Positions 34,076 to 40,667 of a DNA stretch of 44,928 nucleotides are shown here, piece by piece; positions within the stretch are counted from its first letter, which is position 1, and every line of letters starts with the position of its first letter. Source of the DNA: Candidatus Cloacimonadota bacterium (GTDB taxonomy: Bacteria; Cloacimonadota; Cloacimonadia; Cloacimonadales; JAIOQZ01); contig JAIOQZ010000006.1 in the NCBI GenBank assembly GCA_021108395.1, positions 1 to 44,928 on the forward strand, in the 5' to 3' direction. A program made the translations under genes and the position numbers. The notes below the pieces were generated by a model. The model was not told the DNA's origin. It worked only from the letters and a program-made list of their open reading frames with translations, and did not search any database.

Positions 34076-34146
34076 TGGCCATGAAAAATTCTTTGCAAAC
34101 ACAGAAATGACATGTATGTTGTTGATAAACCCCACAAGGATTGCAT

Positions 34147-35028
34147 ATGCCCGCAGACATCGAATATATACGCAGCGAACTGGAACAGATTAAATCTCTG
34201 CCCACTCTGCCGATTGTCGCCTCAAAGCTGTTGCATATGATGGATAAACCGGATGTCTCGATGGTGGAGATTTCCAAGCTCATCGCAGTCGATCCGGCCC
34301 TGACCAGCCGTGTGCTCAAGATTGCCAACTCGCCTTACTATGGCGTGCGCAACCGTATCGATACTATCAAGCTGGCGTTGGTGGTGTTGGGCCTTTCCGA
34401 GATTCGCAATGTGATGCTGAGTGTTTCACTGTTCCGCACGTTCAGCCGATCAGATGGTGACAGCAGGTTCGACCAGGAAGCGTTCTGGCGGCATTCCATC
34501 GCAGTGGCTCACTTTGCCAAGAAGATTGCGCGCGATTTCCGTATCCGCACACATGGCGAGGAATTCACCGCCGGATTGCTGCACGACATCGGCAAGATTA
34601 TCATTGCCCAGTATTTCGGAGACACCCTGGGACAGATAAAATCGCTGACGGAGATCGCCGGCATGCCGGTGTTCGAGGCGGAGGAGAAGGCGCTCGGGCT
34701 GTCTCACATGGACATTGGCGCCTGGCTGGCCGATAAATGGAAAATTCCGCAGCACCTGACTAAGACAATCCGGTTTCATCACTTTCCACACCTCGTAATC
34801 GACAACCCGCTGCTCACCAATCTTGTCTGTGTGGCCAATCTTGTTGCCAACTACAACGGTTTGAACCTGGATCCACCGCCAGATTACGACGATCTGGTAA
34901 ATCATGACAGCTGGAAAGTTTTGTGTGAGCACAGCGGCTTGAGTTCGGAGATTGACATTGAGGGGTATATCGAGACGCTCGAGGACGAAAAAGATGGAGT
35001 TGACAAATATATGGCGATTTCTTTTTAA
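34147..35028 (+). CDS. HDOD-domain signalling protein
   Basis: The ATG at 34147 follows AAGGA. The 293-residue protein is one HDOD domain (about 10-210): IKSLPTLPIVASKLLHMM, EISKLIAVDPALTSRVLKIANSPYYG, LGLSEIRNVMLSVSLF, FTAGLLHDIGK, KWKIPQHLTKTIRFHH. HDOD proteins are HD-related, usually without hydrolase activity, and act in two-component and chemotaxis-linked control. The C-terminal part (about 230-293) is specific to this protein. It stands 150 bp before cheY, so it may belong to the same regulon. Confidence 0.92.
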   Translation: MPADIEYIRSELEQIKSLPTLPIVASKLLHMMDKPDVSMVEISKLIAVDPALTSRVLKIANSPYYGVRNRIDTIKLALVVLGLSEIRNVMLSVSLFRTFSRSDGDSRFDQEAFWRHSIAVAHFAKKIARDFRIRTHGEEFTAGLLHDIGKIIIAQYFGDTLGQIKSLTEIAGMPVFEAEEKALGLSHMDIGAWLADKWKIPQHLTKTIRFHHFPHLVIDNPLLTNLVCVANLVANYNGLNLDPPPDYDDLVNHDSWKVLCEHSGLSSEIDIEGYIETLEDEKDGVDKYMAISF

Positions 35029-35180: not shown

Positions 35181-35558
35181 ATGGCAGCGTTGAAATTCCT
35201 CATAGTAGATGATTCCCCAACCATGCGCCGAATCATTACGAATACGCTCAAGCGCTTGGGACACAGGGACATCGAGGAAGCAGACAACGGCAGCACCGGG
35301 CTGGATAAACTCAAGACCATTCCAGGCATCAATTTCATCATCACCGACTGGAATATGCCCGTTATGGACGGGCTGACATTCGTGCAAACGGTGCGCAGCT
35401 CGCCCGACTTCGGCAAATTGCCGATTCTCATGGTCACTACCCGCAGCGTCAAAGATGACATCATCGAGGCGATGAAAGCGGGGGTGAACAACTATGTGGT
35501 CAAACCCTTCACTCCCGAGACTCTGAAGGCAAAGATCGATGCGGTTCTGGGCAAATAG
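35181..35558 (+). CDS. cheY: CheY chemotaxis-type response regulator
   Basis: The 125-residue protein is a stand-alone receiver: acidic pair Asp10-Asp11, phospho-acceptor Asp56 in the CheY hallmark ITDWNMPVMDG, Thr86/Thr87, the switch Tyr105 and Lys108 (NNYVVKPF). The Trp after the phospho-Asp and the Tyr before VVKPF are typical of true CheY, which binds FliM or CheZ when phosphorylated. CGGAGG precedes the ATG. The cheZ-like gene follows after 11 bp. No CheA or receptor gene is in the window. Confidence 0.93.
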   Translation: MAALKFLIVDDSPTMRRIITNTLKRLGHRDIEEADNGSTGLDKLKTIPGINFIITDWNMPVMDGLTFVQTVRSSPDFGKLPILMVTTRSVKDDIIEAMKAGVNNYVVKPFTPETLKAKIDAVLGK

Positions 35559-35569
35559 GGGAGGTGAAG

Positions 35570-36538
35570 ATGAATCAGCCAGATATGAAGCAAGAGGGAA
35601 TCGTTCCGTCCATCATGCGAATGAGAGAGTTCCTGAACGAATTGGTTGAGGCTTTCCAAACATTTCGCAGTGGTGATCTGTCAGAAGAAAAAGTATTGGA
35701 GATCGAGCAGAAGATCACTCTTTACGCCGCCGAGATAACCGAGCTGCCAGACACGGTGACAAAAAGCTACGAACTCATTCAGTCGGTCATTCTCAGTATT
35801 CACAACAGTCGTAGCGAGCTGAAGAAGAGCGTTGATGGGCTTATCAAGAAAACCGGAGTGCAACTCAAAAAGGTGACCAGCACGACCGAGGAGGCCACCA
35901 ATAAAATCCTCGATGTGGCAGAGAAGCTGGACGAAGACCAGATGAAGATTATCGCACTGGTGGACGACCTGGAGGCAGGCAATTCGACTGGCGACAAAGA
36001 AGGCTCTACCGCCAGGTACGAAGATATTCGCAGCAAGATATACCAGAACCAGGAGTCGGCTTTCCTCATCATGGACTACCTTCAGTTCCAGGACATCACC
36101 GCACAGCAGATTGCAGGCGCCTATTCGCTGTTGTCTGACACCGAAAAAACGCTTCTGTACGTCTCCGATTTGCTCCATCGCTTCGACTCGAATCGTGAGG
36201 CGCTTGCCAGCGTCATGCATGACGCTGATAAACGTTCGTTCAACGAGGACGCCTCGTTTTCTGACAAAAAGGTGATGCAGGACGCCATTGATGATCTGTT
36301 TGCATCTGGCGATGTTAATACCGAGATACCGACCGAGCAGAAAAAAGAGGAGACAGCCAAACCGGAGGCCGAGCAATCCGACACTGGCGGCGCTTTTCAG
36401 GATGACATCGACGCACTGTTCAGCCAGGGTTCTGCCAACGGTGCCGACAGCGCTTCACAAGACGACATCGACGCCCTGTTCAACAGCGATAAAAAGGAAG
36501 AAGCCAGCCAGGATGACATCGATAAGCTTTTTTCTTGA
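35570..36538 (+). CDS. cheZ: CheZ-like CheY-phosphatase with four C-terminal CheY-binding-like tails
   Basis: The ATG at 35570 follows GGGGAGGTG. Residues 15-215 form a long helical hairpin with the CheZ catalytic signature DYLQFQDITAQQI; Asp175 and Gln179 correspond to the Asp143/Gln147 pair of the E. coli enzyme, which removes the phosphate from CheY-P. The C-terminus carries four copies of the pattern QD-x-ID-x-LF: 237-244, 277-284, 297-304 and 314-321. The CheZ tail of E. coli (QDQVDDLL) and the FliM N-terminus (SQxEIDALL) bind CheY in this way. Copies 2-4 are spaced by acidic, Ser/Ala-rich linkers. With 322 residues it is longer than E. coli CheZ (214). Confidence 0.88.
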   Translation: MNQPDMKQEGIVPSIMRMREFLNELVEAFQTFRSGDLSEEKVLEIEQKITLYAAEITELPDTVTKSYELIQSVILSIHNSRSELKKSVDGLIKKTGVQLKKVTSTTEEATNKILDVAEKLDEDQMKIIALVDDLEAGNSTGDKEGSTARYEDIRSKIYQNQESAFLIMDYLQFQDITAQQIAGAYSLLSDTEKTLLYVSDLLHRFDSNREALASVMHDADKRSFNEDASFSDKKVMQDAIDDLFASGDVNTEIPTEQKKEETAKPEAEQSDTGGAFQDDIDALFSQGSANGADSASQDDIDALFNSDKKEEASQDDIDKLFS

Positions 36539-36646: not shown

Positions 36647-37012
36647 ATGCCGAAGAACATACTTGTTGTGGACGACGAGGAGAACATCCGAGAGATAATC
36701 TCGGAATTTCTTCAGACGTTGGGCTACCACGTTGTGGAAGTGTCTAACGGAGAAGAAGCTATCGTTGCGTGCAGCAAAGCTAAATTCGATTTGATTATCA
36801 CCGATATCCGAATGCCGAAGATGAACGGGCTGAAGCTCCTCAAGGCTATCAAGGCATATATGCCAGATATGCCTGTGATACTGATGACAGGCTATCAGCC
36901 ATCCAAAGCGCAGGAAGAGAGCTTGACGACAAGGGCCGACGGCTATCTGCTCAAGCCTTTTTCGCTCAACTCGCTGCGCCAGTCCATTTTGAAAATCTTC
37001 AAAACATTGTAA
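36647..37012 (+). CDS. Single-domain response regulator
   Basis: The 121-residue receiver has the acidic pair Asp9-Asp10 with Glu11, phospho-acceptor Asp53 (ITDIRMPKMNG), Thr85 (LMTGY) and Lys107 (YLLKPF). It lacks the Trp after the phospho-Asp and the Tyr next to KPF pattern of CheY, so it is a Spo0F- or DivK-like phosphorelay element rather than a flagellar CheY. It lies 108 bp after cheZ and 13 bp before the small CSCG gene. The most likely phosphodonor in the window is the soluble histidine kinase at 37973 (inference). Confidence 0.92.
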   Translation: MPKNILVVDDEENIREIISEFLQTLGYHVVEVSNGEEAIVACSKAKFDLIITDIRMPKMNGLKLLKAIKAYMPDMPVILMTGYQPSKAQEESLTTRADGYLLKPFSLNSLRQSILKIFKTL

Positions 37013-37025
37013 TCGGCGGACCGAA

Positions 37026-37283
37026 ATGGCGACTCGCAATATCTTTCGCAGTCATGTTCTCAAAGACGACGGCAATTCCGGCAAGCCCCGCGAGATTGCG
37101 ACACCGAAAATCATTACCAAAGCGCATGTGGAAGCCGAAGCGCGTTCGATAGATGTAAACAACGCTCAACAGGATAAACAGCCGGAAATCGAAATTCACA
37201 AAGATGAGCACGGCATTCTCAGCGCCATCGACGTAACATGTTCTTGTGGGCAATCGTTCACAATCATACTGGAATATGAATGA
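37026..37283 (+). CDS. Small protein with CSCG motif, unknown function
   Basis: The 85-residue protein has a charged, probably flexible N-terminal two thirds and a compact end (GILSAIDVTCSCGQSFTIILEYE). The Cys-Ser-Cys-Gly turn flanked by two beta strands could hold half of a metal site, so a dimer with a shared zinc is possible. I recognise no named family. It lies between two response-regulator genes and its stop overlaps the next start (ATGA), so it is certainly translated with them and is likely part of the signalling unit. Confidence 0.75.
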   Translation: MATRNIFRSHVLKDDGNSGKPREIATPKIITKAHVEAEARSIDVNNAQQDKQPEIEIHKDEHGILSAIDVTCSCGQSFTIILEYE

Positions 37284-37969
37284 AAGCTGACATCCTCGTA
37301 GTTGACGACGAACTTCTGCTGCGTGACGTGCTTCACGATTATCTCACGCGACAGGGATACACCGTAGCGCTCGCCTCGAGCGGCGAGAAAGCTATCGAGC
37401 TTGCCCGCAAACAGAAGTTCCACCTCGCGCTTGTCGATATCAAGATGTCTGGCGTCAGTGGCCTCGAAGTGACTGTCGAACTGAAAAAACAGGATCCGCA
37501 GCTCGTTGTCGTCATCATGACCGGCTATCCCAGCCTGAACAGCGCCATTACAGCCATCAAGTCCGGCGCCTCCGAATACATTGTCAAACCTTTCCGCCTG
37601 GAAGAACTCAATCGAATAATCGAGAAGAACCTCGAGTCGCTCGACACCGAGTACGAGAATCTCAAGCTGAAACAGCGCATCCGCGAGTTGGAAGGCAAGC
37701 TTGGTGAATCCACAGCGCCCTCCGATGAGGTTGGGGAGGCTGCCCAAGAGCATTCTCTGCCCGGCTCCTCGCCCCGTAGCGACAAGGCGCCACGCAGTCA
37801 CCAGGATGCGCATACGGTATCAAAGGCATACAGTTCCCAGACATTGGGAGCCAAAGACCAGCAGGTCAGAGAGCAGCTCGAACGTCTGGAGCGTATGCTT
37901 GCCGACGGCCAGATAGGTCGCGGGGATTACGATAAGAAACGCGAGGAGCTGCTGCAAGGCAAGCCCTGA
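37280..37969 (+). CDS. Response regulator with coiled coil and SHOCT-like tail
   Basis: Residues 1-120 are a receiver with Asp9-Asp10, Asp53 (LVDIKMSGVSG), Thr81 and Lys103 (EYIVKPF). A coiled coil follows (about 112-150: LNRIIEKNLESLDTEYENL, KLKQRIRELEGKL). A low-complexity Ser-rich linker leads to a C-terminal helical hairpin (EQLERLERMLADGQIGRGDYDKK) that matches the SHOCT pattern, a short module found at protein ends and thought to aid oligomerisation. There is no DNA-binding domain. It ends 3 bp before the kinase gene. Confidence 0.88.
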   Translation: MKADILVVDDELLLRDVLHDYLTRQGYTVALASSGEKAIELARKQKFHLALVDIKMSGVSGLEVTVELKKQDPQLVVVIMTGYPSLNSAITAIKSGASEYIVKPFRLEELNRIIEKNLESLDTEYENLKLKQRIRELEGKLGESTAPSDEVGEAAQEHSLPGSSPRSDKAPRSHQDAHTVSKAYSSQTLGAKDQQVREQLERLERMLADGQIGRGDYDKKREELLQGKP

Positions 37970-37972
37970 GAT

Positions 37973-39298
37973 ATGCCGCACAATTCAGAGCCCTTCACCG
38001 CAATGAATCCAGGCGATGTGCAGGCCCTTACCGATGCGTTCCGCGATTTCAACCAGGTGGTTGACCGCTTCCAGCAAACTTACCAGTCCCTTCAGGGCAG
38101 GATAAATTCCCTGGGCATTCAGGTCGAGGGCAAGAACCGCCAGCTCGAGCTTCAGATACATGAAGGCGACAACATGAAGAACTTCCTTCAGAGTATCCTC
38201 GAGAACGTCTATACCGGCGTCCTCGTGGTCGATAAGGGAGGAGTGGTGACGCATTTCAACAGGGCCGCCGAAGAGATTACCGGCTACAAGAAAGACAATG
38301 TGGTGGGCAAGAACTACCGGCGGCTGTTCCCCGGCCAGCCGCGGTTGTCGGCGCTATACACCCTGACGACCGGCAAAGAAAACTATCATCGCCAGAAGCG
38401 AATCCGCACCCTCGATGACACCATGCGCGACGTTGAATTCAGTACGACAATCGTTCATGGCGCCGACAACGTGATTCTGGGCGTAGTCGAAACCTTCAAT
38501 GACATTTCGGAGATAAAGAAGCTTCAGGCGCGCATCACGCAAATCGAAACCCTGGCGGCGCTTGGCGAAATGGCTGCCAGCGTGGCGCACGAGATTCGCA
38601 ACCCGCTGGGCGGCATCGGCGGCTTCGCCGGGCTGCTCGATCGCAAGCTCGACAAGAGCGACCCGCGCCGCAAGCTCATAAAACCGATTATCGAGGGCGT
38701 GTCGCGGCTCGACAGCATCGTGGGCAATCTGCTCACGTTCACTCGGCCGCAGAAGCTCAACCCCGTCGCAGTGCCGCTACAGCATATACTCACCGAGATC
38801 ATCAATTTCTTTTGCGTCAATCTGGACAACACAGATAAACCAGTCGAAGTGCGCACCCAATTTCTCGATTCCGACCCAACAGTTCGCCTTGATCAGCAGT
38901 TGTTTCAGCAGATAGTCCTGAACCTGTTGAAAAACGCATACGACGCGATGGACGAGGGCGGTGTTATCACCATTACGACACGGCTGAGTATGCCGGAAAG
39001 CCTTAGTGACATCCTCGACGAAGATGAAAAGAACGAGCTTCTGCGCCTGTTCAGCATGGTCGAGATAGATATTGCAGACACAGGATGCGGCATCGCTCCC
39101 GAAGCGCTTCCCAAATTATTCAACCCTTTCTTTACCACCAAGGACGAAGGCAACGGACTGGGGCTGGCCATCGTCAAGAAAATCCTGATACTGCATCGCG
39201 GTGACGTGACTGTGCACAGCGAGCCGGGCCAGGGCGCTACCTTTACAATCAACCTACCCCTGTATGAGACCTATGAAGAAGAAAATACTGATCGCTGA
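37973..39298 (+). CDS. Soluble PAS histidine kinase (NtrB-like)
   Basis: The 441-residue kinase has no membrane segment. Residues 20-65 are a coiled coil, about 70-185 a PAS domain (SILENVYTGVLVVDKGG, FNRAAEEITGY, VVETFNDISE), then the dimerisation helix with His206 (AASVAHEIRNPLGGIGG) and an ATPase domain with N-box (NLLKNAYDAM), G1 DTGCGI (369-374), F-box FNPFFTT and G2 GNGLGLAI. All catalytic motifs are intact. The closeness to NtrB and the overlap with the sigma-54 activator gene show a cognate pair. It may also feed the two neighbouring receivers (inference). The signal is cytoplasmic and unknown. Confidence 0.95.
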   Translation: MPHNSEPFTAMNPGDVQALTDAFRDFNQVVDRFQQTYQSLQGRINSLGIQVEGKNRQLELQIHEGDNMKNFLQSILENVYTGVLVVDKGGVVTHFNRAAEEITGYKKDNVVGKNYRRLFPGQPRLSALYTLTTGKENYHRQKRIRTLDDTMRDVEFSTTIVHGADNVILGVVETFNDISEIKKLQARITQIETLAALGEMAASVAHEIRNPLGGIGGFAGLLDRKLDKSDPRRKLIKPIIEGVSRLDSIVGNLLTFTRPQKLNPVAVPLQHILTEIINFFCVNLDNTDKPVEVRTQFLDSDPTVRLDQQLFQQIVLNLLKNAYDAMDEGGVITITTRLSMPESLSDILDEDEKNELLRLFSMVEIDIADTGCGIAPEALPKLFNPFFTTKDEGNGLGLAIVKKILILHRGDVTVHSEPGQGATFTINLPLYETYEEENTDR

Positions 39299-40667
39299 CG
39301 ACGAACCGCTCATTCGGCAATTCATCGTCGGTTTTTTTGAATCGACGGAAGAATTCGGTGAGTGCGTGGTGGACGTGGCCGTCAATGGAGACGAGGCAAT
39401 CTCCAGGATACGCGAGAACCAGTACAATCTCGTGTTCACCGACCTCAAGATGCCCGGGCGCAGTGGCCTCGATGTAATACGGTTCGCCCATGAGCATTCT
39501 CCACGCACCGACAGTGTGCTCATCACTGCCTACGCCGCCGGCGAAAGCGCCTCGAAGGCCATGGCATACGGCGCCTACGAATATCTCATCAAGCCCGTCT
39601 CCATCGACGACCTCGAGCTCATCGTGCGCCACATCTTCGAGCGGCAAGACCTCATCCGCCAGAACGAAGATATGAAGCGCCGTCTCCACGAGAAAACGGT
39701 CTATCCCCGCATCATCGGGCGCAGCAAGGCGCTGGCCGACATCATGGATGTGGTCAAGATGGTGGCGCCCACCAACGCCACAGTGCTCATCACCGGCGAA
39801 AGCGGCACCGGCAAGGAACTGGTGGCCGAAGCCGTGCATCGGCTGTCCCCCAAGCGCGACGGTATGTTCGTGCGCATCAACTGCGCCGCCATACCAGAGC
39901 ACCTTATCGAGAGCGAGCTGTTCGGGTTCGAGAAGGGGGCGTTCACCGGCGCCATCAAGCGAACGCGCGGCAAGTTCGAGATGGCCGACGGCGGCTCGAT
40001 TCTGCTTGACGAGATCAGCGAGATGAACCTCGACCTGCAGGCCAAGTTGCTGCGCGTTATCCAATTCAAAGAGATTCTGCGCATCGGCAGCGAAATGCCC
40101 AAGAGCATCGATACGCGCATCATCGCCACCTCCAACCGCGACCTCTCGAAGGAAGTGAAGGAAGGGCGGTTCCGCGAGGATCTGTTCTTCCGACTCAACA
40201 TCGTGCCGCTGCGCCTGCCGCTACTGCGCGACCGCCGCGATGACATTCCGCTGCTGGTAGATCACTTCGTGAAGCATTGCCGCAAGGAGCTTGGCGTCGG
40301 ACGCAAGGCTGTTCCCGCCACCATAATGAGCCGCCTGGTTTCCTACAACTGGCCGGGCAACATCCGTGAACTGCAAAACGTTATCGAGCGCGCCATGATA
40401 ACCTCGCCCGGCGATACAATGCTGCCTGAAACGTTTCATTTTCTCGATGGCTTCTCGAACGCTCCAATTGTGGATGTCCAATCTGCTGAGTCCGGTGAGA
40501 CCGTATATGACAACCTGCCACTGGCTGAGGTGGAAAAGCGGCTCATCCTGCGCACGCTTGAACGGCTCAACGGCAATCGCACCGAAACCGCCACCATTCT
40601 GGGCATCACCACCAGAACGCTTCGTAACAAGCTGCATCAGTACGAAGGCCTGAACGACACGACATGA
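39273..40667 (+). CDS. NtrC-family sigma-54-dependent response regulator
   Basis: Two close ATGs (39264, 39273) lie inside the end of the kinase gene; I take the second (MKKKILIADDEP). Domains: receiver with Asp57 (FTDLKMPGRSG) and Lys108; AAA+ domain with Walker A GESGTGKE (175-182), the sigma-54 contact loop GAFTGA (222-227), Walker B GSILLDE and an arginine-finger region; C-terminal Fis-type helix-turn-helix (LNGNRTETATILGITTRTLRNKL). It is a complete enhancer-binding activator for RpoN promoters. Its targets may include the surface-polymer genes that follow, or unlinked genes. It overlaps the next gene by 4 nt. Confidence 0.95.
   Translation: MKKKILIADDEPLIRQFIVGFFESTEEFGECVVDVAVNGDEAISRIRENQYNLVFTDLKMPGRSGLDVIRFAHEHSPRTDSVLITAYAAGESASKAMAYGAYEYLIKPVSIDDLELIVRHIFERQDLIRQNEDMKRRLHEKTVYPRIIGRSKALADIMDVVKMVAPTNATVLITGESGTGKELVAEAVHRLSPKRDGMFVRINCAAIPEHLIESELFGFEKGAFTGAIKRTRGKFEMADGGSILLDEISEMNLDLQAKLLRVIQFKEILRIGSEMPKSIDTRIIATSNRDLSKEVKEGRFREDLFFRLNIVPLRLPLLRDRRDDIPLLVDHFVKHCRKELGVGRKAVPATIMSRLVSYNWPGNIRELQNVIERAMITSPGDTMLPETFHFLDGFSNAPIVDVQSAESGETVYDNLPLAEVEKRLILRTLERLNGNRTETATILGITTRTLRNKLHQYEGLNDTT

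Follow-up and report, generated by a model that had tools for sequence, protein, structure and literature searches.

A divergent CheZ-type protein with four candidate CheY-binding tails encoded by a Cloacimonadota bacterium

In the window, the 44,928 nt stretch of contig JAIOQZ010000006.1 that was analyzed, the gene of interest (35570..36538, + strand) is an ORF specifying a divergent, 322 aa protein with four C-terminal tails, which is predicted to be a CheZ-type CheY~P phosphatase. It begins with the ATG at 35570, which is preceded by a Shine-Dalgarno sequence (GGGGAGGTGA), and finishes with a TGA stop codon at 36538; the GTG at 35564 that had been listed as its start lies within the Shine-Dalgarno sequence. 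Directly upstream is cheY (35181..35558, +), an arrangement shared by the relatives whose locus extends that far, and upstream of cheY is the gene for an HDOD-domain protein (34141..35028, +; Pfam HDOD, 1.3e-60), a gene order that is also seen in L002, L003 and L004. Three more receiver genes had been reported near the CheZ-like gene in the first-pass annotation, and these are present at 36647, 37280 and 39264. The first (36647..37012, +) codes for a single-domain receiver, the second (37280..37969, +) for a receiver with an additional C-terminal part, and the third (39264..40667) for an NtrC-type regulator carrying a receiver domain (Pfam). An ORF of 85 aa (37026-37283, +), which has no Pfam match and ends in a CSCGxxFTIxLEYE-like segment, lies between the first two receiver genes, and is found in the same position in L002, L004, L005, L008 and L009.

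The protein scores 17.2 bits against Pfam CheZ, below the cut-off of 30.7. One homologue (L011) reaches 31.5 bits, just above this cut-off, and matches the window protein with 35% identity in the best segment (E 3e-26), so that the family assignment is made through this intermediate and the link to the profile is indirect. A catalytic motif, FQDITAQ (F173-Q179; 36086..36106, +), is invariant in 11/11 homologues and was aligned by hhalign with FQDLTGQ of E. coli CheZ (the sequence used differs at one residue from the chain in PDB 1KMI), which places D175 and Q179 opposite E. coli D143 and Q147, the catalytic residues of that enzyme. The motif alignment and the L011 score support the CheZ-type identity proposed by the first-pass annotation. 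A further match in the homologue set, L012, has stops interrupting the frame and was excluded, and no homologue was found among phage records.

An AlphaFold2 model of the monomer, which is of low confidence (mean pLDDT 63), predicts helices at residues 39-135 and 143-203, consistent with the long helical hairpin of a CheZ core (residues 39-203; 35684..36178, +; low to moderate confidence), two of which make up the four-helix bundle of a CheZ dimer. Short helices are modeled, with the same low confidence, at residues 233-246, 280-283, 301-304 and 314-320, at or beside each of the four tail motifs, and the rest of the tail is mostly unstructured. When this model was compared with the PDB by Foldseek, nothing reached E <= 0.001 and no CheZ was retrieved, probably because the confidence of the model is low; a profile built from the homologue alignment retrieved only unrelated helical proteins when compared with solved structures.

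A motif scan for Q[DE]xIDxLF found exactly four copies in the protein: tail 1, QDAIDDLF (residues 237-244; 36278..36301, +), tail 2, QDDIDALF (277-284; 36398..36421, +), tail 3, also QDDIDALF (297-304; 36458..36481, +), and tail 4, QDDIDKLF (314-321; 36509..36532, +). These are the same residues at which four QD-x-ID-x-LF repeats had been noticed earlier. The count is far above chance. When the 117-residue C-terminal region was shuffled 200,000 times, the strict motif appeared once in two shuffles and twice in none, and with a looser pattern, [IVL]Dx[LMI][LFIM], three copies were seen once and four never. The frequency of such motifs in the proteins of this organism was estimated with a degenerate DNA pattern for [QE]Dx[IV]DxLF, which has four matches in the 2.89-Mb genome, all of them inside the CheZ-like gene, and the reversed control pattern has none. 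At the nucleotide level, the copies differ by 3-5 synonymous codon changes per pair, and thus are not the product of recent slippage or fresh duplication.

Tail motifs were counted in CheZ homologues, as the first-pass annotation had proposed, and the array proved to be conserved. All ten flagellated (FliM-positive) genomes that were found in the order of the window organism (phylum Cloacimonadota) carry this CheZ-type protein, with 4, 4, 4, 4, at least 4, 3, 3, 3, 3 and 2 tails (the 'at least' being a lower bound from a gene interrupted by a run of N, and the two-tail member being G023), and ten FliM-negative genomes of the order were found to be without it. CheW domains were detected in 14/14 of the CheZ-carrier genomes tested. 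The ten carriers span six families, across which the IDxLF cores are kept and the linkers vary. Tail 1 lies 62-63 residues past the catalytic Asp in all ten (62 in the window protein), a position matching that of the E. coli tail, QDQVDDLL, at +59. Tail 1 is therefore the ordinary CheZ tail, the counterpart of the single one in E. coli, and the novelty lies in tails 2-4. In the homologues, the additional tails are located at about +86 to +105, +118 to +123 and +139 to +144 from the catalytic Asp. Tails 2-4 of several homologues are without the Gln (DFDIDALF, EIDIDALF), and it may be that some of the copies bind weakly or have a different partner.

Outside the order, two genomes of the same class have one tail each. 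In a comparison phylum, 30 loci with Pfam CheZ were found (L069-L098), and after exclusion of L082, which was unreadable, 29 of 29 have a single tail, at the extreme C-terminus; they resemble the window protein in the core motif and in having a terminal tail, but differ in carrying exactly one. Two genomes of another phylum, in contrast to these and like the window protein, have several tails, three in each case: QKEVDLIF/QDNIDQLF/QDEIDKIF (G346, locus L046) and QKHIDSLF/QEDIDALF/QDEIDNLL (G387, locus L062). The occurrence of extra tails in separate phyla means that they may have arisen more than once. Some other gene architectures were noticed. Judged by eye, the L054 and L055 proteins appear to be fusions of an N-terminal CheW with a CheZ-like domain at the C-terminus; the latter ends in SQDDIDxLL, and additional QDELDxLI motifs lie in the region that joins the two domains. 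L058 specifies a CheZ-like protein (438 aa frame) with two well-separated candidate tails, QHEVDMMF and SQEEIDRIL, the second of which is terminal and is set off from the first by a long, proline-rich linker.

Could the repeats be a neutral, low-complexity expansion, with no function past tail 1? In favor of this, copy number is variable, with 2 tails at the low end and at least 4 at the high end, and the tail units of G004 look recently duplicated (DIDIDALFSNKPESKP). Nevertheless, the motif has been retained in ten genomes of six families with different linkers between the copies, the window copies have diverged at synonymous positions, and additional tails also occur in a second phylum, all of which make neutral expansion very improbable. 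Chance or low complexity as the source of the tails was ruled out by the shuffles together with this conservation.

The probable ligand and substrate is the product of the adjacent cheY, which matches H. pylori CheY in the PDB (E = 7e-40) and is 50% identical to E. coli CheY. In E. coli, FliM residues Q8, I11, D12 and L14 contact V108, K119, I95, A99 and Y106 of CheY, and CheZ binds the same face of CheY as FliM (PMC3774744). The window CheY keeps W58, I95, Y106, V108, F111 and K119 of this protein, with Met in place of A99. On the other side of the putative interface, all four tails retain the counterparts of Gln8, Ile11, Asp12 and Leu14 of FliM, which bears out the likeness to CheY-binding tails that had been suggested for the repeats. 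The 'EIDALL' segment is described as conserved in FliM and FliY among motile bacteria (PMC9126983), and the N-terminus of the FliM encoded in the same genome (MSKLLTQEEIDALLSQE) has nearly the same sequence as tail 2 (FQDDIDALFSQG). The reading of the repeats as several putative CheY-binding tails on one CheZ is, from these sequence comparisons, well supported.

For the protein as a whole, CheY binding, phosphatase activity, dimerization and an effect of multiple tails are properties that we infer, and the reading we prefer, with a probability of about 0.62, is that the four-tail CheZ is a CheY~P phosphatase with extra tethers for capturing CheY~P. The disordered C-terminus would offer four FliM-like, CheY-binding helices in place of one, each folding onto the alpha4-beta5-alpha5 face of the phosphorylated product of the adjacent cheY (CheY~P) and keeping it close to D175 and Q179, the catalytic pair of the helical bundle. 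The handover of CheY~P to the active site would fall to tail 1, as in E. coli, and tails 2-4, following linkers of 32, 12 and 9 residues, would act as additional tethers that raise the rate of capture and the avidity for CheY~P, so that one CheZ dimer could hold up to eight CheY~P. Since the FliM N-terminus is nearly the same in sequence, the tails would be expected to compete with FliM for CheY~P.

This competition might itself be the main function. The extra tails could serve mainly as a buffer, hiding CheY~P from FliM and setting a threshold, with catalysis proceeding via tail 1 only. Tails 2 and 3 are nearer to the FliM EIDALL than is tail 1 (DIDALF versus AIDDLF), and the extra tails of the homologues are 86-144 residues from the catalytic Asp, both of which would suit a competitor; on the other hand, the pattern expected in the sequence is identical whether the tails buffer CheY~P or deliver it, and we regard buffering as rather unlikely to be the main role. 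A second option is that the motif anchors CheZ to another partner, such as the cell pole, CheA or the motor. CheZ has been found at the poles or with CheA in other bacteria (PMC7750401), and a different ligand is conceivable for those homologue tails that lack Gln, but it is FliM and the known CheZ tail that have this motif, and the polar localization of A. caulinodans CheZ maps to its N-terminal helices (PMC7750401), which leaves anchoring improbable.

The nearby receiver genes raise the question of whether the extra tails bind other receivers, including the three close to the gene, so that several pathways would meet at CheZ as a hub. The receiver genes at 36647 and 37280 are conserved neighbors: they or their counterparts adjoin the CheZ-like gene in most of the relatives in which the locus extends far enough to include them. 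However, alignment with CheY shows that position 58 is Ile in these two receivers, position 95 is Gln or Ala, and position 119 is Ser or Ile, and so they lack the binding-face residues W58, I95 and K119. The first-pass annotation raised the idea of an array for more than one kind of receiver; it is not supported by these two sequences, and both proteins are unlikely tail ligands. The two genomes of another phylum with three-tail CheZ proteins have no such receiver cluster beside the gene, and the extra tails resemble FliM, which is a CheY binder. The neighboring receivers other than CheY are unlikely targets of the tails, and a hub function is, like anchoring, improbable.

In textbooks, CheZ is the protein that terminates the chemotaxis signal. 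The enzyme and its single CheY-binding tail are already known, and it is the array of tails that appears new. E. coli CheZ (PDB 1KMI) has FQDxTxQ within a helical hairpin, as is predicted for the window protein, and likewise a CheY-binding tail some 60 residues past the catalytic Asp, but its one tail is at the very C-terminus, whereas the window protein extends for about 80 residues more and carries three further tails. The N-terminal segment of FliM (EIDALL; PDB 1F4V) has the same Q-x-x-I-D-x-L pattern and is nearly identical to the tails, but each FliM has it only once, N-terminally, and FliM belongs to the rotor and is not a phosphatase. No multi-tail CheZ array was found in the open literature (subscription papers were outside the scope of the search), and within these bounds the earlier statement that no such CheZ is known to have been described holds.

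More tentatively, and with somewhat less than even odds, multi-tail CheZ proteins may represent a distinct class of chemotaxis phosphatase present in at least two phyla, in which a FliM-mimicking array of tethers would gather many CheY~P per dimer, terminate the signal in a cooperative or threshold-like manner, and compete directly with the rotor. The conserved extra tails look as if they serve to capture CheY more quickly, or more than one CheY at a time. These proteins also show that the short motif of FliM and CheZ is open to multiplication, as are other multivalent short linear motifs, a possibility seldom considered in work on two-component signaling in bacteria. E. coli CheZ depends cooperatively on CheY~P, and oligomerization as the cause is disputed (PMC2673030), so the natural CheZ proteins, in which a conserved core is followed by 1, 2, 3 or 4 tails, provide a useful, ready series for measuring how tether number affects affinity, cooperativity and competition with FliM.

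Several observations were made at related loci. In L046 and L062, which have no receiver cluster downstream of the three-tail CheZ gene, the gene is followed instead by one for a ParA/MinD-like ATPase (by eye). In the genome of the window organism, only one other receiver matches the window CheY at E <= 1e-15 (36% identity), and it belongs to a second che cluster. This cluster (L068; G000 contig C1, at about 117,000) has ORFs that, judged by eye, resemble CheD, CheB, a further HDOD protein, a receiver of the CheY type and a phosphatase of the CheX type, and the organism is therefore likely to employ CheY~P phosphatases of two different kinds. The gene following fliM (L034:2384-3343) appears by eye to code for a FliY-type protein with a CheC-like part and a FliN domain, and its N-terminus is without the EIDALL segment.
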